Of a DNA stretch of 64,000 nucleotides, positions 13,525 through 64,000 are shown in pieces (within the stretch, counting starts at the first letter, position 1; each line of letters begins with the position of its first letter). The stretch is taken from the NCBI GenBank assembly GCA_902801845.1, contig CADCJW010000002.1, positions 493,627 to 557,626 on the forward strand, in the 5' to 3' direction. Below the pieces are notes generated by a model. That model was not told the DNA's origin. It did no database searches and saw nothing but the letters and a program-made list of their open reading frames with translations. The position numbers were made by a program, and so were the translations under genes. This stretch comes from an uncultured Eubacteriales bacterium (lineage in GTDB: Bacteria > Bacillota > Clostridia > Christensenellales > CAG-138).

Positions 13525-13731
13525 ATGAACAACTTTACCTGCATCGGCGACCTGCCGATGACCCTCTCTGTAGAGGACGTTGCCTCCTACCTGGGGATCT
13601 CCCGGGTAGGAGCCTATAACCTGTGCCACGCCCATGGCTTCCCCTCCATGCGGATCGGAAAGCGGATCCTGATCCCCCGTGACCGCTTCCTGGAGTGGCT
13701 CGACCGGCGGCAGAAGGAGGCGATCGGATGA
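13525..13731 (+). CDS. xis: Excisionase-family helix-turn-helix protein
   Basis: 68 residues from ATG at 13525, 6 bases after AAGGAGG; a longer frame starting 13492 has no such site. MerR-like winged helix of the excisionase type: MTLSVEDVASYLGISRVGAY then NLCHAHGFPSMRIGKRILIP and a C-terminal FLEWLDRRQ helix. Proteins of this type bind attachment sites and direct the integrase toward excision, or act as small regulators. It starts the plus-strand set xis-parB-tnpV-int, overlaps parB by four bases (ATGA at 13728), and is divergent from the polymerase cassette. Excisionase is the favoured role because an integrase follows in the same direction. Confidence 0.85.
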   Translation: MNNFTCIGDLPMTLSVEDVASYLGISRVGAYNLCHAHGFPSMRIGKRILIPRDRFLEWLDRRQKEAIG

Positions 13732-14705
13732 AAAGAAAAATGACCGAACCGACGGAGACCTCTAAATTTGAGATCAGCCCTTCCATGGGCGATGCCATCA
13801 GTCGGGCCGCCGCCCTGGCATTCAACAGGGACATCGACCTGAAGACGACCGTCAAGAACGTATCCCTGTGGGCGCTGAAGCCGTTCAAGAACCATCCCTA
13901 TCGCCTGTATGACGATGCCAAGATGGCGGAACTGGCGGAGAGCATCCGGGAAAACGGAGTCATCTCCCCCATCCTGATCCGGCCGACCGAAGGCCCCAAC
14001 TATGAGATCGTCTCCGGACATAACCGGGTCGAAGCCTGCCGGCGGGCGGGCATAAAGACCATCCCGGCCATCATCCGGGAGATGGACGACGACACGGCGA
14101 CCATGCTGATGGTGGAAGCCAACCAGCAGCGGGAGATCGTCCTGCCCAGCGAAAAGGCCTTCGCCTATAAGATGCGCCTGGACGCCATGAAGCGGCAGGG
14201 CAAGCGCCCCGATCCCACCTGTACCCAAGTTGGGAACAAGTCGGGGGAGAAGTCCGCCGACCGGCTGGCCCAGGAGGTCGGTGAGAGCCGCAACCAGATC
14301 CAGCGCTACATCCGGCTGACCTACCTGATCCCGGAGCTGCGCGATATGGTCGACAGCGGGAAACTGGCCATGAATCCCGCCGTCGAGCTGTCCTACCTGC
14401 CGATGATGGAGCAAACGTATGTGCTGGCCGCTATCCAGTCTGAACAATGCTCGCCCACGCTGGCACAGGCAAAGGAGATGAAGGAGGCATACGCTCACGG
14501 CCCATTCACCTTTGACACTCCGCTTGACATTATGCTGGCTGCCAAAGGAAAACGCAAGGAAGTCCTGTCCCTGCCCATGGACCGCTTCGCCCAATTCTTC
14601 CCGCCCGACAGTACGCCCCGGGAGATCCAGGACGAGCTGTTTCGCATCCTGACGGAATACCAGCGGCGGCAGGAGCGGTGGCGCGCCATGGATATGGAGC
14701 GTTGA
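13728..14705 (+). CDS. ParB-like partition/nuclease-fold protein
   Basis: 325 residues. The ParB N-terminal domain runs from WALKPFKNHPYRLYDDAKMA through ESIRENGVISPILIRP to the signature SGHNRVEACRRAGIKTIPAI at about 101-120. The middle domain is a helix-turn-helix (ADRLAQEVGESRNQIQRYIR). A C-terminal region of about 80 residues may dimerise. ParB proteins bind centromere-like parS sites and, with ParA, segregate plasmids or circular element intermediates. No parA is seen next to it, so it may act as a stand-alone regulator or maintenance factor. The start is the ATGA overlapping the xis stop. Coding contains CCCAAGTTGGG at 14224-14234, which by chance or otherwise matches the hairpin tips at 59.8-61.1 kb. 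Confidence 0.88.
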   Translation: MKRKMTEPTETSKFEISPSMGDAISRAAALAFNRDIDLKTTVKNVSLWALKPFKNHPYRLYDDAKMAELAESIRENGVISPILIRPTEGPNYEIVSGHNRVEACRRAGIKTIPAIIREMDDDTATMLMVEANQQREIVLPSEKAFAYKMRLDAMKRQGKRPDPTCTQVGNKSGEKSADRLAQEVGESRNQIQRYIRLTYLIPELRDMVDSGKLAMNPAVELSYLPMMEQTYVLAAIQSEQCSPTLAQAKEMKEAYAHGPFTFDTPLDIMLAAKGKRKEVLSLPMDRFAQFFPPDSTPREIQDELFRILTEYQRRQERWRAMDMER

Positions 14706-30106: not shown

Positions 30107-30149
30107 AAACCACGAAGCAGGCGCTTAAAAGGCGCCTGCTTCGTGGTTT
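30107..30149. terminator. Bidirectional terminator with 25-bp dispersed repeat
   Basis: 18-bp perfect stem (30107-30124 with 30132-30149), loop TTAAAAG, A run before and T run after. It lies between convergent fumC and the AGCS symporter. The 25 bases 30098-30122 recur exactly at 33746-33770 in another convergent terminator. Confidence 0.85.
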
Positions 30150-48823: not shown

Positions 48824-50584
48824 ATGCCAAACGAAAAGATCAACATAGTTGGGACGAACATCGCCGAGAAGGCGACGATGATCTGGAACGTGGCGGACAT
48901 GCTGCGCGGGCCGTTCAAACCCCACGAGTACGGACTGGTGATCCTGCCCATGACGGTGGTGAAGCGGTTCCATGACTGCCTGCTGCCCACCTATCAGGCG
49001 GTGCAGGATACCTATGAGAAGGTCAAAAACCTGGCCGTCATCGACGGCTTCCTTTGCCGCGCCTCCAAGTACCAGTTCTACAACATCAGCAAGTTCACCT
49101 TCGACCGACTCCTGGCCGATCCGGACAACATCGAAAGCAACTTCCGCGACTATCTGGCCGGCTTCTCCCCCAACGTGCAGGACGTGCTGGCCAAGTTCGA
49201 GTTCGACAGCGTGATCAAGCGCATGGTGGACAGCAACACGCTCTACCTGGTCATCAAGGAGTTCAACAGCCCCAAGGGCTATTTGGGCCCTGACAAGATC
49301 AGCGCCGTGGACTGCGGCTACATCTTCGAGGACCTGGTGCGGCGCTTCTCTGAAAGCTTCGGCGAGGAGGCGGGAGCCCACTTCACCAGCCGCGACATCA
49401 TCTATCTCATGACGGACCTGCTGCTCTCCGACGCCGATCTGACGAAGGAGGGCAACATCACCGTCTACGACATGACCATGGGCACCAGCCAGATGCTTTC
49501 CTGCATGGAGGAGCGTATCCACGATCTGAACGCCGATATCCAGGTCACCTGCTTCGGCCAGGAGTTCAACCCCTCCACCTTCGCCATTGCCAAGGCCGAC
49601 ATGATGATCCGCGGCGGAGACCCCAACAACATGCGGTTCGGCGACACCCTGTCCGACGACCAGTTCAAGGGCTTCACCTTCCAATATTGCATCTCCAATC
49701 CGCCCTTCGGCATCGACTGGAAGCGGGAGCAGAAGGCGGTGGAGGCCGAAGCCGCCCGGGGCGAGTTGGGCCGGTTCAGCCCGGGCCTGCCGAAGATCTC
49801 CGACGGTCAGCAGCTCTTTGTGCTGAATGGTCTCTCCAAACTGGCTCCCAACGGCAAAATGGCCATCATCCAAAACGGCTCGCCCCTGTTCTCCGGCGAC
49901 GCCGGCAGCGGCCCCAGCGAGATCCGCCGCTATATTCTGGAGAACGACTGGCTGGACGCCATCGTCCAGCTCTCCACGGACCAGTTCATGAACACGGGCA
50001 TCTCCACCTATATCTGGGTCTTGAGCAAGGACAAGCCCCTCCATCGGGCGGGCAAGGTGCAGCTGATCGACGCCAGCCATTGCTTCGAGCCCCGGCGCAA
50101 GTCCATCGGCACCAAGCGGAACGACATCACCGAGCGCTGCCGCGATCTCATCGTCCGGGCCTACGGCGAGTTCCGAAACGACGCCGTCTACGGCGACAAG
50201 GCAGGCGTCTATTGCGAAAGCAAGGTCTTTGATACCGCCGCCTTTGGCTACAGCAAAATCGTTGTCGAGCGCCCCTTGCGCGACGAAGCCGGAAACCCCG
50301 TGCTGAAAAAGGGCAAGCCGGTGGCCGATCCCGCCCTGCGCGACACCGAAAACGTCCCTCTCACCGAGGACATCGACGCCTATTTCGCCCGGGAGGTCCT
50401 GCCCTACGCCCCCGACGCCTGGATCGACAGGACCAAGACCAAGGTGGGCTATGAGATCCCCATGACCCGCTATTTCTATGAGTACCAGGCCCCCGAACCC
50501 TCGGAAGCCATCTTGGAGCGGATTACCAAGCTGGAAGCGGAAATCAGCGACAGCCTGAAGGCGCTGTTCCATAAGGAGGGCTGA
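48824..50584 (+). CDS. hsdM: Type I RM adenine-N6 methyltransferase (HsdM), second system
   Basis: 586 residues. HsdM N-terminal domain (EKATMIWNVADMLRGPFKPH), AdoMet motif I in the variant DMTMGTS at 216-222 (Asp-Pro is replaced by Asp-Met), and an intact catalytic NPPF at 292-295. The Ile/Asn-rich Type I C-terminus ends with a coiled coil (ILERITKLEAEISDSLKALF) that would contact HsdS. Sequence and motif differ clearly from the HsdM at 6518, so the two systems are not recent duplicates. First of a six-gene set; the next frame begins 2 bases after its stop. Confidence 0.94.
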   Translation: MPNEKINIVGTNIAEKATMIWNVADMLRGPFKPHEYGLVILPMTVVKRFHDCLLPTYQAVQDTYEKVKNLAVIDGFLCRASKYQFYNISKFTFDRLLADPDNIESNFRDYLAGFSPNVQDVLAKFEFDSVIKRMVDSNTLYLVIKEFNSPKGYLGPDKISAVDCGYIFEDLVRRFSESFGEEAGAHFTSRDIIYLMTDLLLSDADLTKEGNITVYDMTMGTSQMLSCMEERIHDLNADIQVTCFGQEFNPSTFAIAKADMMIRGGDPNNMRFGDTLSDDQFKGFTFQYCISNPPFGIDWKREQKAVEAEAARGELGRFSPGLPKISDGQQLFVLNGLSKLAPNGKMAIIQNGSPLFSGDAGSGPSEIRRYILENDWLDAIVQLSTDQFMNTGISTYIWVLSKDKPLHRAGKVQLIDASHCFEPRRKSIGTKRNDITERCRDLIVRAYGEFRNDAVYGDKAGVYCESKVFDTAAFGYSKIVVERPLRDEAGNPVLKKGKPVADPALRDTENVPLTEDIDAYFAREVLPYAPDAWIDRTKTKVGYEIPMTRYFYEYQAPEPSEAILERITKLEAEISDSLKALFHKEG

Positions 50585-50586
50585 AG

Positions 50587-51342
50587 ATGTTCGAGTTTCC
50601 GCTTATTCGATTTGATAATCGAAAATGGCTTGAAAAGCTTCAAGAGGGTGATTTCTATATGAGAAATTGCCTGTATTATCAAAGCCTTGAAAACGATGAT
50701 GAGGCAAGAAACGACCCTTATGACGGCAGTTTGCCATTCGCTGATATAAATGGAGTAATGAAGCAATTAAGCGGGAAGGAAACGAAGAACCAGAGGCTAA
50801 TGTTGCTGGATTTGTTCGTGAAATGCTTTTATTGCTGCGACGAGGCGGATTTTGTTAGAATCAGCGAATCAATGCGGAAATTGATGTTTTCAGAAAAAAC
50901 AAAACGTGCTATTCGAGAATTCAATGTCGACAGTGCTATGCTGATATTCTCTCCTACTCAATTCATAAAACAAGTTGAGAGTGTATGCGTTTCAAGAAAA
51001 GAACCAATTGCATATGACAAAGTAGAATACTTGGATGAAAAAGGATATCAATGCAAACGAGAGCGACTAGTCGACCATCCAGGCGAGTGTGTAAGATTTC
51101 CATTTTATAAGGATAGTCGGTTTTCCGACCAAAAAGAGTTTAGAATCTGCGTCAAGCATCCTTTGATTCAAGCAGAAGAGCAAAAGTCATACCTAATGCT
51201 CCCAAAAACAATAGGAAATACTCCTTATTCTTTTGATATAGGGCACATTGATGATACTTGTATTGTTAGTATCGAAAACCTTTTGAGAAATGGGATTATT
51301 TTGGATTATAACAGTCAGCATTATTATGTGTGTGAGGAATAG
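50587..51342 (+). CDS. Unknown AT-rich protein between hsdM and hsdS
   Basis: 251 residues, not recognised. The N-terminus WLEKLQEGDFYMRNCLYYQS, then DEARNDPYDGSLPFADINGV, has the arrangement seen in DUF2971-like proteins of defence islands (short helix, aromatic strand, acidic loop with D-x-x-DG). The middle has VKCFYCCDEADFVRI and the C-terminus is beta-rich with FRICVKHPLI. No catalytic motif can be assigned. Its strongly AT-rich DNA contrasts with hsdM directly before it, and it sits tightly packed (2 bases after hsdM, 3 before hsdS), so it was inserted or replaced as a module inside the operon. Confidence 0.75.
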   Translation: MFEFPLIRFDNRKWLEKLQEGDFYMRNCLYYQSLENDDEARNDPYDGSLPFADINGVMKQLSGKETKNQRLMLLDLFVKCFYCCDEADFVRISESMRKLMFSEKTKRAIREFNVDSAMLIFSPTQFIKQVESVCVSRKEPIAYDKVEYLDEKGYQCKRERLVDHPGECVRFPFYKDSRFSDQKEFRICVKHPLIQAEEQKSYLMLPKTIGNTPYSFDIGHIDDTCIVSIENLLRNGIILDYNSQHYYVCEE

Positions 51343-51345
51343 TAT

Positions 51346-52644
51346 ATGAGAGCAATGAAAGACAGCGGGATTCCGTGGATTGAAGAAATACCAGAGAACT
51401 GGAACGTTTTCAATATACGGCATCTTTTCTCCTTTGGAAAGGGACTGCCTATTACAAAGGAGAATTTAAAAGAAAAAGGCGTTTCTGTAATTAGCTATGG
51501 TCAGATTCATTCAAAATTGAATAAAGGAACATCTATTATTCCAGAATTAATTCGATATGTTGATGATTCATATTTGACAAGCAATCCAGAATCGCTGACG
51601 AAGAAGGGAGATTTCATTTTTGCCGATACTTCAGAAGATGTTTTGGGATGTGGTAATTGTGTATACGTTGATAAAGATATTACCTTGTTTGCAGGATATC
51701 ACACGATTATTTTGCGTAATAAGGCTAAAGAAAGCAGTAAGTACCTGGCATACCTTTTTTCCACTGATGCATGGAGAAAACAGATACGGGAACGAGTAGC
51801 CGGTGTAAAACTATTTAGCGTTTCACAAAAAATACTGCGTGAAACATCAATCATTTTGCCCCCGTTCGTTGAGCAAGAGCGTATAGTAGATTGTCTCGAC
51901 ACCGAATGTGCGCGGATTGATGCAGTGATGGAGCAGACGCGGGCGTCCATTGAAGAATACAAGAAGCTGAAACAGTCCATCATCACCGAAGCCGTTACCA
52001 AAGGCATCCGTAAAGATCGTCCGATGAAAGATAGTGGGATTGATTGGATTGGAAAAATACCTTCTGATTGGACAGTATCAAGTATTGGACAGAAGATAGT
52101 ATTTGAGGGTGGAGGACAACCGCCGCTTACTGAATTTATTCATGAGCCGAGGGAAGGATATGTTAGATTAATTCAAAATCGAGATTATAAAACAGATGCT
52201 TACCTCACATATGTCCCAGCAAATAGCGTGTCCAAGTTTTGTAATTGCGACGATGTTATGATAGGACGTTATGGTCCCCCAACGTTTGTACTTCACAGAG
52301 GGCTAGAGGGGGCATATAATGTTGCACTTATGAAGGCTATTCCGCAAGAAATTGACAGGGAATGGATGTCATTTGTTTTACAGGAATATACTATGCTGAA
52401 ATACATTGAATCCTTCTCAAAAAGGGCGGCAGGGCAAGATGGAGTGAACCCGGTTATTCTAAAGAAATATCCATTACCTCTTCCCAGTATTGAAGAACAA
52501 AAAGAAATTGCTGATTATTTGAATACAACGTGTGCGTCGATAGACGGCATAATTGCGCAGAAAGAAAGATTTGTTTCGGAAATGGAATCCTACAAGAAAT
52601 CCTTGATCTTTGAATATGTCACGGGGAAGAAGGAGATTGTGTGA
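51346..52644 (+). CDS. hsdS: Type I RM specificity subunit (HsdS), second system
   Basis: 432 residues. Two recognition domains each open with an almost identical lead (MKDSGIPWIEEIPENW near residue 4 and MKDSGIDWIGKIPSDW near residue 226). Each is followed by a conserved helical spacer (LPPFVEQERIVDCLDTECAR and LPSIEEQKEIADYLNTTCAS) with EEYKKLKQSIITEAVTKGIR. The GC-richer spacer DNA at 51.93-52.02 kb is flanked by AT-rich recognition domains, evidence of domain exchange. ATG 51346 or 51355 may be the start. Target sequence unknown. Confidence 0.94.
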   Translation: MRAMKDSGIPWIEEIPENWNVFNIRHLFSFGKGLPITKENLKEKGVSVISYGQIHSKLNKGTSIIPELIRYVDDSYLTSNPESLTKKGDFIFADTSEDVLGCGNCVYVDKDITLFAGYHTIILRNKAKESSKYLAYLFSTDAWRKQIRERVAGVKLFSVSQKILRETSIILPPFVEQERIVDCLDTECARIDAVMEQTRASIEEYKKLKQSIITEAVTKGIRKDRPMKDSGIDWIGKIPSDWTVSSIGQKIVFEGGGQPPLTEFIHEPREGYVRLIQNRDYKTDAYLTYVPANSVSKFCNCDDVMIGRYGPPTFVLHRGLEGAYNVALMKAIPQEIDREWMSFVLQEYTMLKYIESFSKRAAGQDGVNPVILKKYPLPLPSIEEQKEIADYLNTTCASIDGIIAQKERFVSEMESYKKSLIFEYVTGKKEIV

Positions 52645-52645
52645 T

Positions 52646-53656
52646 ATGAGAGCGCATACCGTCATTCTTGGCGCAGGAGCAACCATCGCTGCAATTCCAA
52701 ACGGAGATAGACACGGGCGTAAATCTTCTGTAATGAATGGATTGATAGAGAAGCTTAATATACAGGATGTGCTGCGAGGTGTTCATCTTAGTACAACAAG
52801 CGACAATTTGGAAGATATTTATTCCGAGTTATGTTCTAGGCCTGAGTACAAGGAAGCATGCCAGGAACTTGAAAGAAGATTATATGATTATTTCAGTTCG
52901 TTGGAACTGCCTGATGAACCAACAGTCTACGATTTCTTAGTCTTAAGTTTAACAGATAAAGATGCTATAGCTACATTTAATTGGGACCCGCTATTGGTCC
53001 AGGCATACACTAGGTGTCATTATTATACAAGTAATCTACCGCGCATTTTATGCTTACATGGAAATGTGGATGTTGGCTTTTGTCCGAAGCACTATGAATA
53101 TGGAAAAATAGGCACAAGGTGCTTTCAGTGTAATGATGTTTTAACTCCGACTAGTCTATTATATCCAGTTGCAAACAAGGATTATGACAACGATGAATTC
53201 ATTAGACGGACCTGGAATACTGTTGAGTATTGCATTAAAAACTCATATATGTTGACAATTTTTGGTTACAGTGCGCCAACAAGTGATGCTAAAGCTGTTT
53301 CCCTTTTGAAAAAGGCATGGGGCGACAAGGATAGTCGGCAATTTGAGGAGGTGTCGGTAATCGATGTAATTGATGAAGATTCCATGCTGGATAAATGGAA
53401 GGATTTCATTTATTCGCATCATTACAGATACACGAACGACTTCTTTAGTTCCTATCTAGGTATGCTTCCCCGTAGATCATGTGAAGCGACTTTTGCACGG
53501 CTTATGGGAGGAATATGGTTAGATGGTGATAGTGGCTTTAAGAAAGGCATGACTTGGTATGATATTCAGACCTTGCTGGCCGAACTGTTGGAGGAAGAAG
53601 CGGAGACACCGAAAGGGCAGAATTATCCAGTACACTATGTGCCTCATCGAAAGTAA
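52646..53656 (+). CDS. SIR2-like defence-type protein inside the RM operon
   Basis: 336 residues from ATG at 52646, one base after the hsdS stop. MRAHTVILGAGATIAAIPNG gives the Rossmann-type glycine loop GAGAT (9-13) of SIR2-like proteins. FNWDPLL at 111-117 and LHGN with H138 fit the NAD-binding Asn/Asp and catalytic His positions. A zinc-ribbon-like group follows with Cys 146, 159 and 162 (FCPKHYEY, CFQCNDV), and GYSAPTSDAKAV at 207-218 is a typical closing motif. In phage-defence systems SIR2-like domains deplete NAD. Here the domain lies within a type I RM operon, so a back-up abortive response when restriction fails is plausible but inferred. The C-terminal 100 residues are not assigned. 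Confidence 0.75.
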   Translation: MRAHTVILGAGATIAAIPNGDRHGRKSSVMNGLIEKLNIQDVLRGVHLSTTSDNLEDIYSELCSRPEYKEACQELERRLYDYFSSLELPDEPTVYDFLVLSLTDKDAIATFNWDPLLVQAYTRCHYYTSNLPRILCLHGNVDVGFCPKHYEYGKIGTRCFQCNDVLTPTSLLYPVANKDYDNDEFIRRTWNTVEYCIKNSYMLTIFGYSAPTSDAKAVSLLKKAWGDKDSRQFEEVSVIDVIDEDSMLDKWKDFIYSHHYRYTNDFFSSYLGMLPRRSCEATFARLMGGIWLDGDSGFKKGMTWYDIQTLLAELLEEEAETPKGQNYPVHYVPHRK

Positions 53657-53668
53657 GGAGAGCTTGTC

Positions 53669-54277
53669 TTGATAGATAGAATCATATCTGAAATCAAAAC
53701 TTGCCTGGAAAACGGCTGCTACATCGCCGCCCTTACTATGGCGTTGACCTTGCCGGATATTTGTGGTCGAGCCGAATATGGCGATATCGGTAATAGGAAA
53801 CGCTTTATAGATTGGTATACTGAGCATATAGGACAGTATGAGAAAACTCGGGCCACCACCGATGGTGACAAAAGGTGGTATGCCGATGTACCATATCTCA
53901 GCGGGGAAATGCTTTATGCACTAAGATGCAGCTTGCTTCATTCCGGAGATACGGAAATAAACGGACAAAAAATGAAAGAGGAGCAAAACAAGATTGATAG
54001 CTTTACTCTTACCATTCCCATGGATAACGAGCTGCATTCCTATGGCAGCAGCACCTTTATCCAATATGCCCCAGATGGAAGTGTCGCTTATCGCGCATTT
54101 GAGATTGATATTCCCGATATCTGCAACACGCTTTCTTATGTTGCAGGGAAGTACTATACTGAAAACAAAGACAAATTCGACTTTTTCCGGTATAATATCA
54201 TCGACAAGCGCGATGAGGCACCAAGACCATCGAGAGAACCTCAATACGAACTGAATTTTGAGGAGATAGAGGAATGA
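53669..54277 (+). CDS. HEPN-like small protein in the RM operon
   Basis: 202 residues. The N-terminal helical half contains [20 protein letters not shown], then [20 protein letters not shown] with R86 and H91 in an RX4H arrangement, which is the signature of HEPN-fold RNases. The C-terminal half is beta-rich with [21 protein letters not shown] do not recognise a named family. It sits between the SIR2-like gene and hsdR and overlaps the hsdR start by four bases (ATGA), so its translation is coupled to hsdR. With the SIR2-like gene it makes a two-gene insert in an otherwise standard hsdMSR order. It could be a toxin-like effector or an accessory restriction factor. Confidence 0.7.
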
Positions 54278-57200
54278 GCATCACCGACACCACAGAAAAG
54301 CGCTTTGAGGACGATATCACCGCCTTTTGGCTGTCCGCGGCGGGCGGGTACACCCGGAACGAGGACGTGTACGACGCCGGGCTGGGACTGTTCCCCGACA
54401 CGCTGATCCGGTTCGTGCAGAAAACCCAGCCCAAGGCCTGGGCGCGGTTTGCCAACGCCAACGGTGTGAACACGGAGCGGAAGTTCTGTCTGGCCTTCGA
54501 CAGCGCCTGCGAGACCAATGGGCTTGTCCATGTGCTGCGGCACGGGTTCAAGCATCGGGGCATTGGGTTTCGGGTGTGCTATTTCAAGCCGGAGTCGGAG
54601 CTGAACCCCCTGGCCGTGGAGCAATATAGGGAGAACGAGATCACCTGCAACCGGCAGTGGTTTTATTCCGCTGAGACCAACAAGAGCGTGGACGTGATGC
54701 TGGCCGTCAACGGCATCCCCGTGTTCGCCTTTGAGCTGAAGAACCCCTACACGGGGCAGAACGTGGACAACGCCGTGCGGCAATGGATGTACGATCGTGA
54801 CCCCCGGGAGGTCTGCTTCCAGTTCAACAAGCGCATTTTGGGCTTCTTCGCCGTGGACCACGCGGAGGTGCGGATGGCCACGGCCCTGCGGGGCAAGGAC
54901 ACCTTTTTTCTCCCCTTCAACCAGGGCAGCCACGGCGCGGGCCAGGACGGCGGCAAGGGCAACCCACCGAACCCGGACGGGTACCCTACGGCCTACCTCT
55001 GGGAGGAAGTGTTCCAAAAGGACAGCATGATGGACATTCTGCAGAAGTTCATCCATCTGCAGATCGACGAGGAGAAGAAGCTGCTGCCCGACGGCACGGA
55101 GAAGGTGGTGCGGAAGAAGACGCTGATCTTCCCCCGGTATCACCAGTTGGACGTGGTGCGCAAGCTCATCGCCCACGTGTCCGAGAACGGCGCCGGGCAC
55201 AACTACCTCATTCAGCACAGCGCCGGGTCCGGCAAGTCCAACTCCATCGCCTGGACGGCCTATCGGCTGGCGTCGCTGCATGACAAGGACAACAACGCGG
55301 TCTTTTCGAGCGTAATCGTTGTGACCGACCGCACGGTGCTGGACGCGCAGCTGCAAGCCACCATCTCCGGCTTCGACCACACCCTGGGCGCGGTGGAGAC
55401 CATCGGTGAGGAAAAGAGCAGCAAGGACCTGCGGGACGCCATCAACGGCGGCGCGCGGATCATCGTGACCACGCTGCAGAAGTTCCCCGTCATCTATCAG
55501 GAGGTGGACGCCGCCAAGGGCCGCAACTACGCCGTCATCGTGGACGAAGCCCACTCCTCCCAGACGGGTACTTCGGCCCTGAAGCTGAAGGCCGCCCTGG
55601 CCGACACGGAGGACGCGCTCAAGGAGTACGCCGAGATCGAGGGCATGGCGGAGGAGGAAGTGGACCCGGAGGACAAGCTGGTCCGGGAGATGCTGATTCA
55701 CGGTCGGCACAAGAACCTGTCTTTCTTCGCCTTCACCGCCACGCCCAAGGGGACGACCCTGGAGATGTTCGGCACCGAGCAGGCGGATGGACGGTTCCGG
55801 CCGTTCCACGTGTATTCCATGCGGCAGGCCATCGAGGAAGGCTTCATCCTGGACGTGCTACAGAACTACATGACCTATAACACCTGCTTCCGGATCGCCA
55901 AGACGATCCCCGACAACCCGGAGGTCCCCGGCAGCCGCGCGGCGAAGGTCATCAAGAAATTCGAGGAGCTGCACCCCTACAACATCAGCCAGAAGGCGCA
56001 GATCATCGTGGAGACCTACCTCGGCACCACCCGGCACAAGATCGGCGGCCGGGGCAAGATGATGGTGATCACCTCTTCGCGGCTGGCGGCGGTGCGCTAC
56101 TACCACGAGTGCAAGCGATATATCGCCGAGAATGGCTACAACGACATCGGCGTGCTGGTGGCGTTCTCTGGCGCGGTCAGGGACGGCGGCGAGGAATATA
56201 CCGAGCCCAGGCTGAACGTGCGGCCCGACGGCAGCCATATCGGCGAAGCGCAGACCAAGGCGGAGTTCCACGAAAACTTTCATGTGCTCATTGTGGCAGA
56301 GAAGTATCAGACCGGCTTCGACGAGCCGCTGCTGCACACCATGATCGTGGACAAGAAGCTGCGGGGCGTCAAGGCTGTGCAGACACTGTCCCGGCTGAAC
56401 CGCACCTGCCCGGGAAAGATGGACACCTTCGTCCTGGACTTTGTGAACACCGCCGAGGACATCAAGGAGGCGTTTCAGCCCTTTTACCAGGAGACCATTC
56501 TGGAGCAGGAAGTCAACGCCGATTTGCTGTACGAGGTGCAGAAGAAGCTCCGCGGGTACATGGTGTACACCGATGGGGATATTGAAGCGTTCTGCGCGGA
56601 GTATTTCAAGAAGGGCAAGCAGGACAAAAACGCCATGGGCCGCATGACCAGCGTGCTGCTGCCCGTGCGGGACCGCTACAACAAGCTCACGCCGGACAGC
56701 CGGTATCAGTTCCGCCGCCTGTGTCGTAATCTGCGCAAGTGGTACGGGTACATCTCACAGGTGGCGCGGATGTTCGATGCGGATCTGCACAAGGAGTATG
56801 TGTTCGTCAGCTATCTGTTCGACTTGCTGCCCGAGAATCCGGTGGACATGCTGGATCTGGAGGGCAAGCTGAAGCTGGAGTATTATAAGCTGGACAAGAC
56901 CTTTGAGGGCGTGATCGCCTTGGCAGAGGAGGACGGTGTTTATAAACCTGCCAGCGCGAAGGGTGCTGTGAAGCCGGAGGAGAAGCAGCCGCTGGACGAG
57001 ATCATCGAGAGGATCAACGAACTGTACAAGGGCCAGTTCACCGAAGCCGACCGGGTGCTGCTGACGGCTCTCCAGGCGAAACTGATGAAAGATCCGAAGC
57101 TGGCCACTATGGCGCGGACCTCCGATCCGCAGATCTTTGCCGAGTCCATCTTCCCGAAAGCCTTTGGCACTGCGGCGCAGGACAGCTACATGGAATCGCA

Positions 57201-57297
57201 GGAGACCTACTCCTCTCTGTTCGAGGACCAAAGCAAATACAACGCCATCATGAGCGCCCTTTGCACCGTCGTCTACCGCGAGATGCGGAAGAAGTAA
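54274..57297 (+). CDS. hsdR: Type I restriction subunit R (HsdR), second system
   Basis: 1007 residues, full length. The N-terminal nuclease has D140 and E154-x-K156 ([20 protein letters not shown]). The helicase motor has P-loop [10 protein letters not shown] at about 314-323, [16 protein letters not shown] box [10 protein letters not shown] near 424, [10 protein letters not shown], and late motifs [14 protein letters not shown] and [13 protein letters not shown]. The C-terminal helical domain binds HsdM. All motifs look intact. GC-rich like hsdM and unlike the four genes between them. ATG overlaps the stop of the HEPN-like gene. It differs from the HsdR at 1-2698, so the host carries two distinct type I systems. 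Confidence 0.96.
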
Positions 57298-57513: not shown

Positions 57514-58491
57514 ATGGAAGCAGATGGGAGTCGCCTCGATTTGGTCAGCATCAGAAGTAAGGATGGGAGCACGCATCTGGTGAAGAACAGTTGGACGCTG
57601 CCTGCGTTCTATTGCCTGCCCATGGAAATCCTTATGAACATGCAGACGCCCGTCCGAAACCTGCCGCGCCGTCCCTGCGAGCTGCTGCTCCATCCGGAAT
57701 ACATCGAGGTAATTGAAAGTGATATCTTTCTGGAACATATGAGCGACGCCATTGCCTATCTCGCCTGGCCGGCTTTGGGCATGAAGGGGTGGATGGAATA
57801 CTATTCCGGCTACTCGCCCCAATGGAGGATCGCCCATGCCACCGACCAGTGGGTCTTGGGTATGCAGCAGGCCGGAGCCATTCCCGTCAACCGCCAGCTG
57901 TTCTTCCGCCCCCTCTGTTTTTGCGAGATGCCCATCCCCACCCTGGAGGAAGCTTTTGTCATGGTGGCCACCGCCGCACCATACGTGCTGGACCGCGACA
58001 ACCAAGGGCTGGCGGTTGAGACGGCCAAGGCGTTCCCCTGCGAGGAGGACTTCGACCTGGAGAAGAGCCATAACCGGCGGCTGCAAAACTTTAGGCGGGA
58101 ATGGTATCATAGGCGGACGAAACATCCTGATGTCTACTATGGGGTCATCGTTGAGAACACGAACTTTTCTCATCATGACAAGTTGATGAGCCTGGCGGCG
58201 GAAGACGACACGGAGGAGGAAGTCGTTGCCAGTCAGCATGGCAAAGCATTTTATAACACCCTGTCGCCTCTGGATCAAAAGATCATTTATCTGCGGGGCA
58301 AGGGCTGGACGCTGGAACATATCGCAGAGCAGGTGGGCTTTGCCACTCACAGCGCCGTCCTGAAGCGGATCCGTCGGATCTGCAAGGCCTACGAGCTGTG
58401 GTCCGGGGAGGACCTGGGCTTTCGCCGGAAGCCGGAGAAAAAGCCGTACTTCGACTATGACGCCATCCGGCGGCAGAAGCATGTGGTATGA
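57514..58491 (+). CDS. Mobile-element protein with C-terminal sigma-like HTH
   Basis: 325 residues from ATG at 57514 after GAGGAGG. Residues 1-225 form an unrecognised domain (ATDQWVLGMQQAGAIPVNRQ, FFRPLCFCEMPIPTLEEAFV). The end is a clear helix-turn-helix of sigma-70 region 4 type: LSPLDQKIIYLRGKGWTLEH, IAEQVGFATHSAVLKRIRRI, then YELWSGEDLGF. A truncated relative of the last third remains in the scar at 33821-34060, so this gene type travels with these elements. It may be an element transcription regulator. No gene is seen in the 216-base gap from hsdR, where a few AT-rich stretches could hold its promoter. Confidence 0.8.
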   Translation: MEADGSRLDLVSIRSKDGSTHLVKNSWTLPAFYCLPMEILMNMQTPVRNLPRRPCELLLHPEYIEVIESDIFLEHMSDAIAYLAWPALGMKGWMEYYSGYSPQWRIAHATDQWVLGMQQAGAIPVNRQLFFRPLCFCEMPIPTLEEAFVMVATAAPYVLDRDNQGLAVETAKAFPCEEDFDLEKSHNRRLQNFRREWYHRRTKHPDVYYGVIVENTNFSHHDKLMSLAAEDDTEEEVVASQHGKAFYNTLSPLDQKIIYLRGKGWTLEHIAEQVGFATHSAVLKRIRRICKAYELWSGEDLGFRRKPEKKPYFDYDAIRRQKHVV

Positions 58492-58594: not shown

Positions 58595-59596
58595 ATGAGA
58601 GCGTTCAATTACAGCAAATACCGGGAGCAAAAATGGGATTCGGAGGTCCTGGGTCTGGTGGCGGCCATCTACAAGGAGGCCGGAAAGCAGGAACTGTACC
58701 TGAAGCAGCGGCCGGAGGAGCTGGAAAAGCTGGTGGAGATCGCCAAGATCCAGAGCACGGAATCATCCAACGCCATTGAGGGCATCGTGACCACCAGGAA
58801 CCGCAGCGAGCAGGAGATCGCCGGGTATCGGGACGTGCTTTCCGTCATCCATGAGAGCTTCGATGCGATCCCAATCACCCGAAACTACATCCTTCAGCTC
58901 CACAAGATCCTGTACAGCCACACGAACAACCCCATGGCCGGGCAGACCAAGAACGTGCAGAACTACATCAGCGCCACCTGGCCGGACGGACACACGGAGA
59001 TCCTGTTCACGCCCCTCTCGCCCTTCGAAACCCCGCCTGCGCTGGATCAGATCTGCGTGGAATACGATCGCGTGATCGGGAATCTGGAGCTGGAACCGCT
59101 GATCGCCATTCCGGTGTTCATCCATGATTTCCTGTGCATCCACCCTTTCAACGACGGGAACGGCCGCATGAGTCGCCTGCTGACCACGCTGCTCCTTTAC
59201 CGCAGCGGATTCTATGTAGGCAGATACATTTCGCTGGAGGCCAAGATCGCCAAAAACAAGGACCTGTACTATGAGGCCCTTGGCGCTTCCCAGCACGGCT
59301 GGCACGAGGGCTGCGACGATCCGGTGCCCTTTATCAAATATCTGCTGGGCATGATCCTGGCCGCATACAGAGACTTCGCGGATCGCTTCGCCCTGGTCGA
59401 GCAAAAGCTCCCCGCTCTGGAGACGGTTCGGCTGGCGGTACAACAGAAGATCGGCCGCTTCACCAAGCAGGATATCCGGGAGTTGTGCCCGGCGCTGAGC
59501 CTGAGCTCCGTGGAAGGGGCCCTGCGCAAAATGGTGGCGGATGGCGAAATCAAGCGGGAGGGCGCCGGAAAGAATACTCAATATATACGAGTGTAA
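58595..59596 (+). CDS. Fic-domain AMP transferase-like protein
   Basis: 333 residues. Fic proteins transfer AMP (or other groups) from nucleotides to target proteins. The core motif HPFNDGNGR is at 183-191 with the catalytic His, preceded by AIPVFIHDFLCIHPF. An N-terminal inhibitory helix TESSNAIEG at 55-63 fits the S/T-x-x-x-E-G pattern with Glu62, so it is a class II self-inhibited Fic. The C-terminal winged helix (FTKQDIRELCPALSLSSVEG) probably binds DNA and may autoregulate through the operator half-sites ahead of the gene. It ends at a strong terminator. It may act as a maintenance toxin or a general regulator of this element. Confidence 0.92.
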   Translation: MRAFNYSKYREQKWDSEVLGLVAAIYKEAGKQELYLKQRPEELEKLVEIAKIQSTESSNAIEGIVTTRNRSEQEIAGYRDVLSVIHESFDAIPITRNYILQLHKILYSHTNNPMAGQTKNVQNYISATWPDGHTEILFTPLSPFETPPALDQICVEYDRVIGNLELEPLIAIPVFIHDFLCIHPFNDGNGRMSRLLTTLLLYRSGFYVGRYISLEAKIAKNKDLYYEALGASQHGWHEGCDDPVPFIKYLLGMILAAYRDFADRFALVEQKLPALETVRLAVQQKIGRFTKQDIRELCPALSLSSVEGALRKMVADGEIKREGAGKNTQYIRV

Positions 59597-59714: not shown

Positions 59715-59729
59715 TTGGCGTTCCAAATG
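59715..59729 (+). repeat. 15-bp direct repeat left of the hairpin array
   Basis: TTGGCGTTCCAAATG, repeated exactly at 61329-61343 just before mobC. At this site GGAAC upstream also pairs with GTTCC, making an imperfect hairpin. Confidence 0.8.
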
Positions 59730-59763: not shown

Positions 59764-61090
59764 AATTCTGGCCATGATGGCCAGAATTATTGCTCTGAAA
59801 AACCATCCCAAGTTGGGATGGATTTTGAAAGACCGATCGACTTTGTCACAAGTTGCGACAAAGTGAGTCAGAAAAGTCTGGCCAAGTTGGCCAGACTTTT
59901 CTACAACAACTTCTGCTAAAGTTGGGTGGAAGTGAGCGAGATAATTATTCCCAATTTGGGAATAATTTTAAGACAGCCACTTCCCGACAACTTGTCGGGA
60001 AGTTGGCGATGACTGTTTTGAAAATGCGTCCCAAGTTGGGACACATTTCGCGAATGTCGTTGTCCCGGAGCAGGGATAGAATTTCCCGACAAGTTGTCGG
60101 GATTTATTACGAGGAAGGACGCGGGCAAAAGTTGGGCCAAGTTGGCCCAACTTTTCTATAACAACTTCCGCCCAAGTTGGGCGGAAGTGAGCGAGATAAT
60201 TCGTTCCATAATAGGACTAATTTCTTGGGCGGCAACTTCGTCCCAACTTGGGACGAAGTTGAAAAGTCTCGCCAAGTTGGCGAGTCTTTTGATGTAGGCG
60301 GAGCTGTTGACTTGTGGCCAAGTTGGCCACAATTTGAAAAATGGTGCTCAAATTGATCACCATTTTAGGTGGCCGAAAGATAATTCAGTTCAATTTGAAC
60401 TGAATTAACTTGTGCTTTAGTTGATCACAAGTTAAGCCGGCGTAACTTCAGGACAACTTGTCCGGAAGTTAATTGTGGCCAAGTTGGCCATAATTTCCGA
60501 TGGTTCATTTATAGTCAACTTCTGGCCATCATGGCCGGAAGTAAAATTGTGTCCAAGCTGGACACCATTTTCAAGTAAACACGAGTTATCAAAAAGGTTC
60601 CCAAGTTGGGGACTTTTTCTGTAATTAACTTCTGGTCAACTTGACCAGAAGTTAATTGTGTCCATGATGGTCACCGTTTTTGCGTCAGGAACTTCGGCCC
60701 AAGTTGGGCAGAAGTGAAAAACTGGACCATGATGGTCCACGTTGTCACTCCCGGAACTTCGGACCAAGTTGGTCCGAAGTAGGAAATTCGTGCCAAGTCG
60801 GCACGAATTCTTTGGCCGGAGCGAAGGCAAAAACATGAGCCAAATTGGCTCACGTTTAATCGAGGACCGCTGCTAAAAAAGAGCGCCAAGTTGGTGCTCT
60901 TTTTATAGAAGCCCGTTGCTGAAAATGTGGGACAAGTTGTCCCACATTTCTAAGGAGAAGGCTAACAACAGAAAATAAGGACAAGTTGTCCTTAATTATT
61001 GGACGAATGCAGATCAACTTCCCGCCAAGTTGGCGGGAAGTTCAAATCAGTAGCCGTGAGCTAACTTCGTGCCAACTTGGCGCGAAGTTA
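59764..61090. repeat. Array of 34 sequence-diverse hairpins with a CA-NNN-TG tip
   Basis: 1.33 kb without genes, made of 34 inverted repeats about 26-71 bases apart. Each is a stem of 7-16 bp capped by C-A, a three-base loop and T-G. Loops: AGT in most; ACT at 59990, 60246, 60456, 60639, 61075; TGA at 59775, 60665, 60730; TCA at 60529; ATT or AAT at 59954, 60393, 60351, 60843. Units begin at 59764, 59803, 59840, 59871, 59909, 59943, 59979, 60022, 60084, 60127, 60164, 60233, 60262, 60312, 60338, 60381, 60406, 60443, 60471, 60518, 60544, 60592, 60623, 60658, 60691, 60723, 60756, 60785, 60831, 60876, 60923, 60976, 61016 and 61062. Stem sequences differ between units but both arms change together. 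The longest stem is 16 perfect bp (60623-60657). ACTTC/GAAGT outer arms recur. It lies between the Fic terminator and the mob genes. Confidence 0.95.
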
Positions 61091-61241: not shown

Positions 61242-61397
61242 GGACCGAACGGGGACGGGTGTAGGTTTCCCGGAAGAGCTTTGCCCGCAGGAAACGGACA
61301 TCCCGCACGGGATGTGCAAGCATAGCATTTGGCGTTCCAAATGCGCTTGCCGGGGCACCCGGACCCGTATGCCGCGCAAGGCGCGGGGAAAGGAGTT
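61242..61397 (+). other. Inverted-repeat region before mobC (candidate oriT)
   Basis: Several hairpins: CATCCCG-CA-CGGGATG near 61298-61313, GCATTTGG/CCAAATGC at 61325-61344, and GCCGCGC/GCGCGG near 61371-61386. It contains the second copy of the 15-bp direct repeat. Position immediately upstream of mobC and relaxase fits an origin of transfer; the nick site cannot be assigned by eye. Confidence 0.45.
61329..61343 (+). repeat. 15-bp direct repeat right of the hairpin array
   Basis: TTGGCGTTCCAAATG, identical to 59715-59729. The two copies bracket the hairpin array at a distance of 1.6 kb. Confidence 0.8.
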
Positions 61398-61712
61398 ATG
61401 GAATACAGATCAAGGAACATTCACGTTGGGACCCGGCTGAATGAAGCCGAGCATAAGAAACTGATGGAGTTGTGTCAGCGCACAGGCCTGGGGACCACCC
61501 GGCTGCTGCGAAAGCTGATCACAGACACGGAGCTGAAGGCAAAGCCCACCCCGGAGCTGCGGGAACTGCTGCGGGCCGTGGACCGGATCGGCAACAACCT
61601 GAACCAGCTGGCCCACCGGGCCAACGCCATCGGCCTCATCGACCAGGCAGAGTGGGACCGGGTGAAGACTCTCCACCGGGAGCTGCGGGAGGAGGTATCG
61701 AGATGGCGGTGA
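61398..61712 (+). CDS. mobC: MobC-like relaxosome accessory protein
   Basis: 104 residues from ATG at 61398 after AAAGGAG. A ribbon-helix-helix-like N-terminus (SRNIHVGTRLNEAEHKKLME, GLGTTRLLRKLITD) is followed by the family block AVDRIGNNLNQLAHRANAIG and a C-terminal helix (DRVKTLHRELREEVSRWR). It helps the relaxase at oriT. It overlaps the relaxase start by ten bases and shares its layout with the orphan MobC at 8955. The region upstream is rich in inverted repeats, fitting oriT. Confidence 0.9.
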   Translation: MEYRSRNIHVGTRLNEAEHKKLMELCQRTGLGTTRLLRKLITDTELKAKPTPELRELLRAVDRIGNNLNQLAHRANAIGLIDQAEWDRVKTLHRELREEVSRWR

Positions 61713-63085
61713 CCAAGATTCTGGCCAAGACCACCCGTCTCGACCACCTGGTCCGGTATGTGGTCAATCCAAAGAAGACGGGCGAACAAGTGTTCGTCTC
61801 CTCCGTGGGTTGCCTGCCGGAGACGGCGGCCCGGACCTGGATGGACACCAAGCGCCGGTTCGGCAGGATGGACGGCGTCCAGGCCTATCACCTGATCCAG
61901 AGCTTCAAGCCCGGGGAGATCACCCCGGAGCTGGCCCACGAGATCGGGAGCCGGTTCGCGGAACGGTATCTGGACGGGTTCGAGGTGATCGTGGGCACCC
62001 ATGTGGACAAGGCCCACGTCCACAACCACATCATTTTCAATTCCGTCTCGGACCGGGACGGGCACAAGTATCACTCCTCGCCCAACTCCTACTTTAAGGA
62101 GGTCCGGGCCCTGTCCGACGCCCTCTGCCGGGAGTACGGCCTGTCGGTCATCGAGGAGCCGGGCAGGCGAGCCCTCACCTATGTGGAGTGGCGGATGCAG
62201 AAGCTGGGCATCCGGACCCAGCGGCAGCTGGTGGACCGGGACGTGGCGGAATGCCTGTCCCTGGCCATGGACGTGGGGCAGTTCTACGCTCTCATGGAGG
62301 ATCGGGGCTACACCATCCTGCACAGGAGCCGCTACCCTACTTTCGTCCCCTACGGAGACGAGCATGGCCATCGGGCCCGGGTGAAGGGCAAGGCCATGAC
62401 GGAGGACGACCTCATCGCCTACATCGACAAGGCCATGACGGACCCCACCTTCGAGGTCATCCTGCCCAAGCAAAAGCGGGTCCGCTTTCCCCGCGGAAAG
62501 GTCACGGGTTTCCGGGCCTGTGTTCTGGCCTGGACATACATCCTGGGGCTGGTGAACGACGGGGTGCAGATGCAGCATGTGGTGCCGCCCAGGGAGCTGA
62601 AGCGATTCGAGCAGCTGAAGAAGGCGGCGGCCTACCTGACCAATAACAAGATCGACACCCTGGAGCAGCTGGAGGCCCGCATGGCCGATCTCACCCGACA
62701 GATCGACTGGCAGACCAAGCACAGGATCATCCTGAACGGGAAGAAGAAGCGGCAGCGGCCCCTCTACGACGCTCTGCAGATAGTGGCCATGTACGAGGGC
62801 CGGGACGAGGCTGCCTTTCCTCTCTCCCCGGAGGAGCAAAATAAACTGCAAAAAGCACAACAAATTCTTTCAAAAACCCCCATCGACATCCTCAAACTTG
62901 AGCGGGAAAGGCTGTATGCTGATCTCGTGGAGGTAAATCGGGCGCTCCGCCATCTGAAAACCGAAGTGTGTCTATGTGAGCAGATCAAGGCAGACAGCAC
63001 CCGCATTCAATCGAACCTCCGCCCCTTCCTGACCGAGGATAGGGAGCTCATCGAAGGGTTCTCGCATTATGACCGGGAACGGTAA
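61703..63085 (+). CDS. Relaxase / mobilization nuclease
   Basis: 460 residues from ATG at 61703 (GGGAGGAGG upstream). It nicks oriT and pilots the strand into the recipient. The N-terminal relaxase domain has a candidate nucleophile Tyr19 in LVRYVVNPKKTGEQV, AYHLIQSFKPGEITPELAHE, and the metal triad GTHVDKAHVHNHIIFNSV with H100, H105, H107 and H109. The C-terminal part has coiled-coil segments (LEQLEARMADLTRQIDWQTK, ILKLERERLYADLVEVNRAL). No type IV secretion genes are seen, so the element is mobilizable by a helper rather than self-transmissible, as far as the window shows. It is translationally coupled to mobC. Confidence 0.93.
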   Translation: MAVTKILAKTTRLDHLVRYVVNPKKTGEQVFVSSVGCLPETAARTWMDTKRRFGRMDGVQAYHLIQSFKPGEITPELAHEIGSRFAERYLDGFEVIVGTHVDKAHVHNHIIFNSVSDRDGHKYHSSPNSYFKEVRALSDALCREYGLSVIEEPGRRALTYVEWRMQKLGIRTQRQLVDRDVAECLSLAMDVGQFYALMEDRGYTILHRSRYPTFVPYGDEHGHRARVKGKAMTEDDLIAYIDKAMTDPTFEVILPKQKRVRFPRGKVTGFRACVLAWTYILGLVNDGVQMQHVVPPRELKRFEQLKKAAAYLTNNKIDTLEQLEARMADLTRQIDWQTKHRIILNGKKKRQRPLYDALQIVAMYEGRDEAAFPLSPEEQNKLQKAQQILSKTPIDILKLERERLYADLVEVNRALRHLKTEVCLCEQIKADSTRIQSNLRPFLTEDRELIEGFSHYDRER

Positions 63086-63267: not shown

Positions 63268-63415
63268 AGTTACCGTCGTGGACAGCGACGGATCGAATAT
63301 GGAGGATCGGATCATCCACATGATCCAAAATCAACCAGTTGCATTGGCCGGGGAAGGTGGTATACTGGATGTACCGCAACCGTCCTGTCGGCAGCCTGAA
63401 AGGATGAACACATGA
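63224..63415 (+). CDS. Small transposon-associated protein
   Basis: 63 residues, MNMTRRIKNTIYQVKVTVVD, then SNMEDRIIHMIQ and a Pro-rich tail. ATG 63224 is chosen by similarity with the protein at 40327; a TTG at 63214 lies closer to AAAGGAGG and is an alternative. It overlaps the serine recombinase start by four bases (ATGA at 63412). Function unknown; the pairing with the recombinase suggests a role in its expression or activity. Confidence 0.7.
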   Translation: MNMTRRIKNTIYQVKVTVVDSDGSNMEDRIIHMIQNQPVALAGEGGILDVPQPSCRQPERMNT

Positions 63416-64000
63416 GCATCAGGCAGACAGAACAAGAACAGATTACAGCCCTATACGAGCGCCTGTCCCGGGACGACGAGCAGCTGGGGGACAGCAATTC
63501 CATCGTGATGCAAAAGCGCATGTTGGAGGACTATGCCGCGCAGCATGGTTTCTCGAACTGCGCCCACTACACCGACGACGGCTACACCGGCGGCAACTTC
63601 GAGCGCCCGGACTGGAAACGGCTGGTGGCGGACATCGAAAGTGGGAAGGTGGCGGCGGTCCTGGTGAAGGACATGAGCCGGGTGGGCCGAGACTATCTGC
63701 AGACCGGCTTCTACACGGAGGTGTTCTTCCCCCAGCACGGGGTCCGGTTCATCGCCATCACCAACGGCGTGGACAGCGCGGACCGGCAGAGCGGCGAGTT
63801 CGCCCCCTTCCTCAACATCATGAACGAGTGGTATTTGAGGGACGCCAGCCGCAAGCAGAAGCAGTCCTACCTGGCCCGGAGCCGGGCCAACATCCCCTTT
63901 TCCAACAAGGTGCTCTACGGGTACAAAAAGGACCCGGAGCAGAAGCACCACCTGCTGATCGACGAGGAATCCGCCGCCGTGGTGCGGGAGGTCTTCGCCC
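63412..64000 (+). CDS. Large serine recombinase, 5' part (continues beyond window)
   Basis: 196 residues visible, frame open at the right edge. N-terminal resolvase catalytic domain: ALYERLSRDDEQLGDSNSIV with the nucleophile Ser in RLSRDD, YTDDGYTGGNFERPDWKRLV, GKVAAVLVKDMSRVGRDYLQ (conserved Asp/Arg of the family) and RFIAITNGVDSADR. This matches TnpX/TndX-type recombinases of mobilizable transposons in Clostridia, which excise and insert the element. With the relaxase and mobC it defines the transposon occupying the right side of the window. The recombinase and zinc-ribbon domains lie outside. Confidence 0.95.
   Translation, partial: MSIRQTEQEQITALYERLSRDDEQLGDSNSIVMQKRMLEDYAAQHGFSNCAHYTDDGYTGGNFERPDWKRLVADIESGKVAAVLVKDMSRVGRDYLQTGFYTEVFFPQHGVRFIAITNGVDSADRQSGEFAPFLNIMNEWYLRDASRKQKQSYLARSRANIPFSNKVLYGYKKDPEQKHHLLIDEESAAVVREVFA

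Follow-up and report, generated by a model that had tools for sequence, protein, structure and literature searches.

The non-coding array of about 30 to 35 palindromic ParB-type sites at positions 59764-61090 of the window (the whole 64,000-nucleotide stretch of DNA analysed here) is probably a bank of some 30 parS-like sites, at which the ParB proteins of numerous other elements would bind to a mobilizable element without a nearby ParB gene. This element would in that way likely make use of the machinery by which the others are segregated or transferred. An otherwise unexplained non-coding array is in this way tied to a large specificity code which, in gut Clostridia, relates ParB proteins to sites inside the genes that encode them; the association suggests a form of mobile-element parasitism in which many docking sites are copied at once. 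Neither a comparable array nor a parB-embedded code was found in print in the open-access literature.

Form and distribution of the array

An inverted-repeat scan (pair +1, mismatch -2, score at least 8) identified 30 odd-centred palindromes in 59764-61090. Sequences shuffled 200 times with their dinucleotides preserved contained 0.045 on average and never more than 1, ruling out a chance origin; the rest of the 64 kb contains three more inverted repeats at this threshold. At a score of at least 5 the array yields 34 matches, two of which (60146 and 60337) look like overlapping by-products, and three further eroded units are recognizable by eye near 59919, 60210 and 60667. The total is thus about 35, in line with the 34 hairpins counted by a first-pass annotation of this DNA, provided that weak and eroded units are included. 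Each unit begins at its outer edge with an arm of the AAHTT type, followed inwards by four to six variable bases and a central CA-NNN-TG, after which variable bases and arm return in mirror image. The CA-NNN-TG tips that the annotation regarded as invariable are present in 29 of the 30 units, the exception being CAAGTCG at 60797, and its description of fully paired stems holds for 251 of 270 cells, the stems being sometimes imperfect. No strand is assigned to the array. All 30 well-formed units have distinct 25-mers, while CRISPR and tandem repeats require near-identical units; these classes and REP elements were rejected, as they had been by the annotation, because the units are unlike one another. 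Sites conserved in structure are known from the attC sites of integrons.

Searches of plasmid and phage collections with the array DNA gave no match. A pattern of two neighbouring units matches the genome of origin at the array only, and a similar pattern produced 27 matches in 10 of 103 genomes of the family (reversed control, four matches in three genomes). Arrays could be read in nine genomes, that of the window included, while the tenth pattern-positive genome (G050, locus L033) has a site in a parB gene and no array. The first-pass annotation had proposed looking for arrays upstream of mobC in related elements, and these do exist; it had also named decayed pairing in such elements, or an assembly artefact, as grounds for doubt. 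Decay is seen in a few eroded units of the window array, and the orthologous arrays in other, independent genomes speak against an artefact. Elsewhere in the window, two long palindromes at 30128 and 33776, 3.6 kb apart, share the arm CCACGAAGCAGGC and are unlike the array units.

Genomic context

Downstream of the array on the forward strand are a mobC/NikA-type mobilization gene (61398-61712; 104 aa when read from the ATG at 61398), a gene for a MobA/VirD2-type relaxase (61703-63085) and a gene for a large serine recombinase (63412-64000) that continues beyond the window end and encodes 611 aa overall. As far as sequence can tell, this gene content, taken together with the genes upstream, corresponds to that of an integrative mobilizable element. 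On the upstream side, a gene for a Fic-domain protein (58595-59596, forward) lies between the array and a forward-strand gene at 57514-58491, whose 325 aa product has no match in Pfam or NCBIfam; a relative of this product (L036) scores below the cut-off for sigma-70 region 4. The 57514-58491 gene adjoins the array in seven of nine other array loci, at 37-100% identity, and 15 of 29 loci with its relatives are without palindromes in the 1.5 kb flanks. Farther upstream (48824-57297) the type I restriction-modification genes hsdM, hsdS and hsdR are interspersed with genes of unknown function. The sequence TTGGCGTTCCAAATG flanks the array at 59715-59729 and 61329-61343, each copy within a short inverted repeat, and the second copy, upstream of mobC, resembles an oriT stem.

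No ParB gene was found beside the arrays, either in the array loci or in the 1.5 kb flanks of the relaxase loci. Among 30 related relaxase loci, an array is present in six, a ParB gene in 12 (1.5 kb flanks) and both in none, an exclusion that does not reach significance (Fisher p = 0.057) with flanks of 1.5 kb and several contigs ending near the array. The relaxases of array-bearing loci are at least 63% identical to that of the window and those of ParB-bearing loci less than 50%; four further loci in the band of at least 63% are cut by contig ends. The window does encode a mobile-element ParB of its own (13695-14705); the palindrome that its gene has in the customary position is eroded, and its code is absent from the array, which counts against the bank reading.

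Palindromes within parB genes

When 396 genomes of the order were searched with a single-unit pattern, ACTTC-N4-CAASTTG-N4-GAAGT, 24 had a match, and the reversed control matched none. Solitary sites of this kind turned out to be part of coding sequences: in 14 of 18 loci read, the palindrome lies within a ParB-like gene, where it encodes DLTSxQ(V/L)GxK or a variant of it. With a relaxed pattern, twelve genomes have one or two sites each, and the two sites have differing codes in all three two-site genomes; its reversed control gave one match in each of five of the twelve. A scan of named genomes found at least 120 stretches with the motif, mostly from Clostridia. Among the matches listed, 131 CA..TG palindromes in 80 loci fall in ParB-like genes (45), in other open frames (47) or in none (39). 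In 104 of the 154 motif matches from these stretches (at least 120) all four free inner positions are paired, compared with 16.7 (maximum 26) when the right arms are re-dealt, a count made with no filter on palindrome score. The annotation's view that compensated variation is under selection is borne out.

A set of ParB genes collected independently of the motif gives the same picture. A protein-similarity search at 1e-20 matched 93 of 103 genomes of the family, the weaker matches being chromosomal-looking; with these excluded, the set contains 110 loci (L183-L292) among the matches listed. Of the 91 ParB frames in this set that could be read, again among the matches listed, 78 have the palindrome directly before the helix-turn-helix; the remaining 13 lack it there, although several have an eroded version. 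These 91 are what remains of 105 frames examined once 14 were set aside in which the helix motif was not found, several of them with a palindrome. The count is by position and omits palindromes elsewhere in the gene (e.g. L194, L221) and the wrong frame L212. A second class of outer arm, AAAAT..., encodes KN instead of DLTS; arrays contain both this class and a CCANTGG core, the latter being a variant seen in parB sites. The parB sites lie on the element that encodes the ParB, as expected of parS; arrays differ in this respect, having no ParB found around them.

Related palindromes occur in other settings. In another element family (L073, L087, L088, L102, L105, L116, L118, L119 and L140), GGGC-only palindromes are dispersed, often 12-24 bases past a stop codon or in intergenic regions and sometimes in frame within genes; we take them to resemble the dispersed operators of KorB. 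Small clusters of mixed codes were seen in Oscillibacter sp. MSJ-31 (L156), a roe-deer Clostridia MAG (L093) and an IMG/VR contig (L374). The latter is the only one with such a cluster among 24 stretches of viral contigs that have the single-unit motif.

Inner code and the ParB recognition helix

For the parB-embedded sites, the inner bases co-vary with the DNA-reading helix of the protein. Mutual information across 147 non-redundant ParBs (filtered from 174) ranks the palindrome-encoded residues first, as it must, and the best-ranked residues outside the encoded stretch are E176, N164 and R175. Among pairs of ParBs less than 60% identical, the proportion with the same code rises with agreement at five positions of the helix (164, 171, 175, 176 and 179): it is 0.4% when at most one residue is shared, 3% with two shared, 11% with three, 49% with four and 50% with five. 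This contrast is partly circular, as the five were picked after seeing the data. In a split-half test on 141 ParBs (filtered from 162), columns chosen in one half predicted code similarity in the other, and 164, 175 and 176 were among the columns selected in both halves. In one direction r was 0.28, where 200 control sets gave 0.05 +/- 0.07 and at most 0.22; in the other it was 0.54, where control sets gave 0.01 +/- 0.04 and at most 0.13. A scan of 244 eight-residue windows speaks against this: the best four cover 139-149, on the N-terminal side of the encoded loop and next to it, while windows of the recognition helix come fifth and sixth. The signal at 139-149 may reflect ParB subfamilies that go with the two arm classes. 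In an AlphaFold2 model (mean pLDDT 81), residues 163-171 and 175-186 are helical and the palindrome-encoded stretch at 149-161 is disordered; Foldseek matches are Spo0J, ParB, Noc and KorB. By correspondence of the G-x-S-R motif, R175 is equivalent to R173 of Caulobacter ParB, which according to PMC7383237 touches parS and, with three other residues, sets the preference between parS and NBS.

A symmetric double-stranded site read by a ParB dimer of changing specificity would explain the co-varying arms, and the compensated stems are best read as such sites for ParB dimers of evolving specificity; the term "hairpins" in the first-pass annotation is probably a wrong reading of the units, and palindromic binding, which it also listed, gains from the co-variation with the helix. 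Mismatches in the parB sites, counted on the coding strand and drawn from ParB frames holding a palindrome of score at least 7, comprise one G.T and seven A.C, so that no preference for G.U is apparent; in the arrays G.T is somewhat commoner (37 versus 23 A.C), a weak point against the double-stranded reading. The co-variation itself is a property of the parB-embedded sites and is carried over to the array units via sequence identity. With more than 140 non-redundant natural pairs of ParB and site, this protein-DNA recognition code is directly testable, and the pairs could yield mutually independent ParB/parS combinations for imaging or stable vectors. ParBs of differing code are encoded by commensal laboratory strains, among them Flavonifractor sp. 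An82 (CGTCC), Lachnoclostridium sp. An131 (CCGCC), Flavonifractor sp. An306 (CTCGC) and Mordavella massiliensis An420c (CGACA).

Correspondence between array and parB codes

The array of the window has 15 distinct, perfectly symmetric inner 6-mers, and 12 of these are present in parB genes, compared with 4.8 +/- 1.4 under a column-shuffle null that reached this number in 0 of 2000 trials; position-filtered sites give the same result. For all arrays together, 22 of 36 symmetric codes occur in parB genes versus 10.7 under the null. When arm and code are matched jointly to parB half-sites, the agreement over 9 nt is 24 of 56 in the window versus 14.3 re-dealt (0 of 2000), while over 11 nt it is 10 versus 6.6 (148 of 2000) and not clear. 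Across the full 25 bp, 35-36 of 198 array units are identical to a parB site, six of them in the window: the units centred at 59991 (59979-60003; L163), 60176 (60164-60188; L120, L125, L141 and L180), 60247 (60235-60259; ten parB-gene sites, including L039, L055 and L060), 60640 (60628-60652; L264), 60768 (60756-60780; L111, L244 and L278) and 61029 (61017-61041; L271), none with an assigned strand. The inner code of unit 60247 also occurs in L187, a ParB encoded at another place in the genome of origin. Two array units of genome G039, L029:7311 and L029:7834, are identical to the sites within that genome's ParB genes L281 and L207, and unit L031:2871 of G042 is identical to the site within its ParB gene L269.

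Among the matches listed, the codes of family sites are covered to 39 of 92 by the window array and to 49 of 92 by all arrays (36 and 44 of 78 after filtering). When the window array is aligned with that of G042, 29 units share a column; the code is the same in 11 of them, differs in one arm in 12 and differs in both arms in six. Codes of resident ParBs are found in the array of the same genome in only 10 of 20 cases versus 240 of 808 for non-resident ones (p = 0.048; permutation, 0.04; nine array genomes), a difference that no more than suggests that arrays favour the codes of resident ParBs; the figure of 9 of 12 for five of these genomes comes from a subset defined post hoc.

Proposed role and alternatives

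Loading at parS, followed by spreading in the form of clamps, is established for the ParB family. A ParB dimer would recognise its own code in a double-stranded palindrome and hence bind an array unit of matching code, so that the ParB of a co-resident element could load at the unit or units with its code. Once loaded there, it might act in cis on the mobilizable element, beside the mobilization genes. The most likely outcome would be partitioning of the excised circle, as for SGI1 with the ParABS of its helper; alternatively, transfer would be helped. A ParA motif (a crude one) is located within 2.5 kb of 12 of 58 ParB loci with room for it, and with so few neighbouring ParA motifs, partition may not be the job of these ParBs and a role in transfer is possible.

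A decoy pool was already among the options of the first-pass annotation: the array would titrate the ParBs of competitors, destabilising them or freeing ParB-repressed genes, with no part in its own upkeep. The array could indeed compete with many different elements, and the extra parS copies of SGI1 destabilise its helper (PMC10954446); but SGI1 shows that both effects can go together, and with mostly one or two sites per code and 30 of 30 units different, borrowing from many partners fits better than soaking up one protein, which makes titration as the sole purpose unlikely. It is very unlikely that every unit is a site for one and the same protein of the element, for instance MobC or the product of the 57514-58491 gene, with inner bases that drift as long as symmetry is kept. 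The frequent presence of the 57514-58491 gene beside other arrays would suit such a platform, whereas about half of the loci of its relatives are without palindromes in 1.5 kb flanks, the overlap of array and parB codes far exceeds the shuffled null, and arm and code together exceed the re-dealt expectation at 9 nt and, less clearly, at 11 nt.

The remaining alternative, in which pairing is selected by the folding of a long many-hairpin RNA or of single-stranded DNA during transfer, is extremely unlikely. The compensated stems, the adjoining mobilization genes and the slight excess of G.T over A.C in the arrays are compatible with it; yet the varying bases follow the ParB recognition helix, the parB sites lack any such excess on the coding strand, and the only match in an Rfam scan of the window was tRNA. 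Folding as the cause of the compensation, as the annotation had offered, is not supported.

The reading as a bank of parS-like sites may be taken further, although with somewhat less than even confidence: the array could be a universal centromere adaptor, in which, thanks to an evolving library of parS codes, nearly every conjugative element in residence could supply a ParB that segregates or mobilises the satellite. If so, codes in the library would be swapped as the surrounding mobile elements change, ParB elements would diversify their codes in turn, and, with the site inside parB, reader and target sequence would be united in a single gene.

Comparison with known systems

For sites of ParB-family proteins in arrays, the closest layout is sopC of the F plasmid, with a spacing of about 40 bp as in the present array; sopC repeats are alike and serve the SopB of their own element, whereas the array units differ. 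KorB of plasmid RK2, a conjugative element, has the ParB fold and its palindromic sites are likewise odd-centred; as with KorB, some of the relatives described here have sites dispersed between genes. KorB sites, unlike the many codes of the array, have a single sequence and lie on the element that makes KorB. As in the specificity switching between ParB and Noc (PMC7383237), symmetric palindromes appear to be read by the recognition helix of ParB, with R173 as the counterpart of R175; that system has two site types, parS and NBS, two bases apart, while dozens of codes are found here and the site lies inside parB.

The nearest functional parallel is SGI1, which carries two copies of the IncC parS that bind the ParB of the plasmid, with the result that SGI1 is stabilised and the plasmid destabilised (PMC10954446). 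As with SGI1, the array belongs to a mobilizable element, apparently without a Par system, that carries sites matching the parS of other elements; no ParB of its own was found around the arrays. The two differ in that SGI1, as described there, has two copies and one helper family, whereas the array has about 30 codes and apparently addresses many ParBs; binding was demonstrated for SGI1, while the array is known from its sequence. The most likely reading, a polyspecific bank of parS sites, would extend the parS mimicry by mobilizable elements that is known from SGI1.
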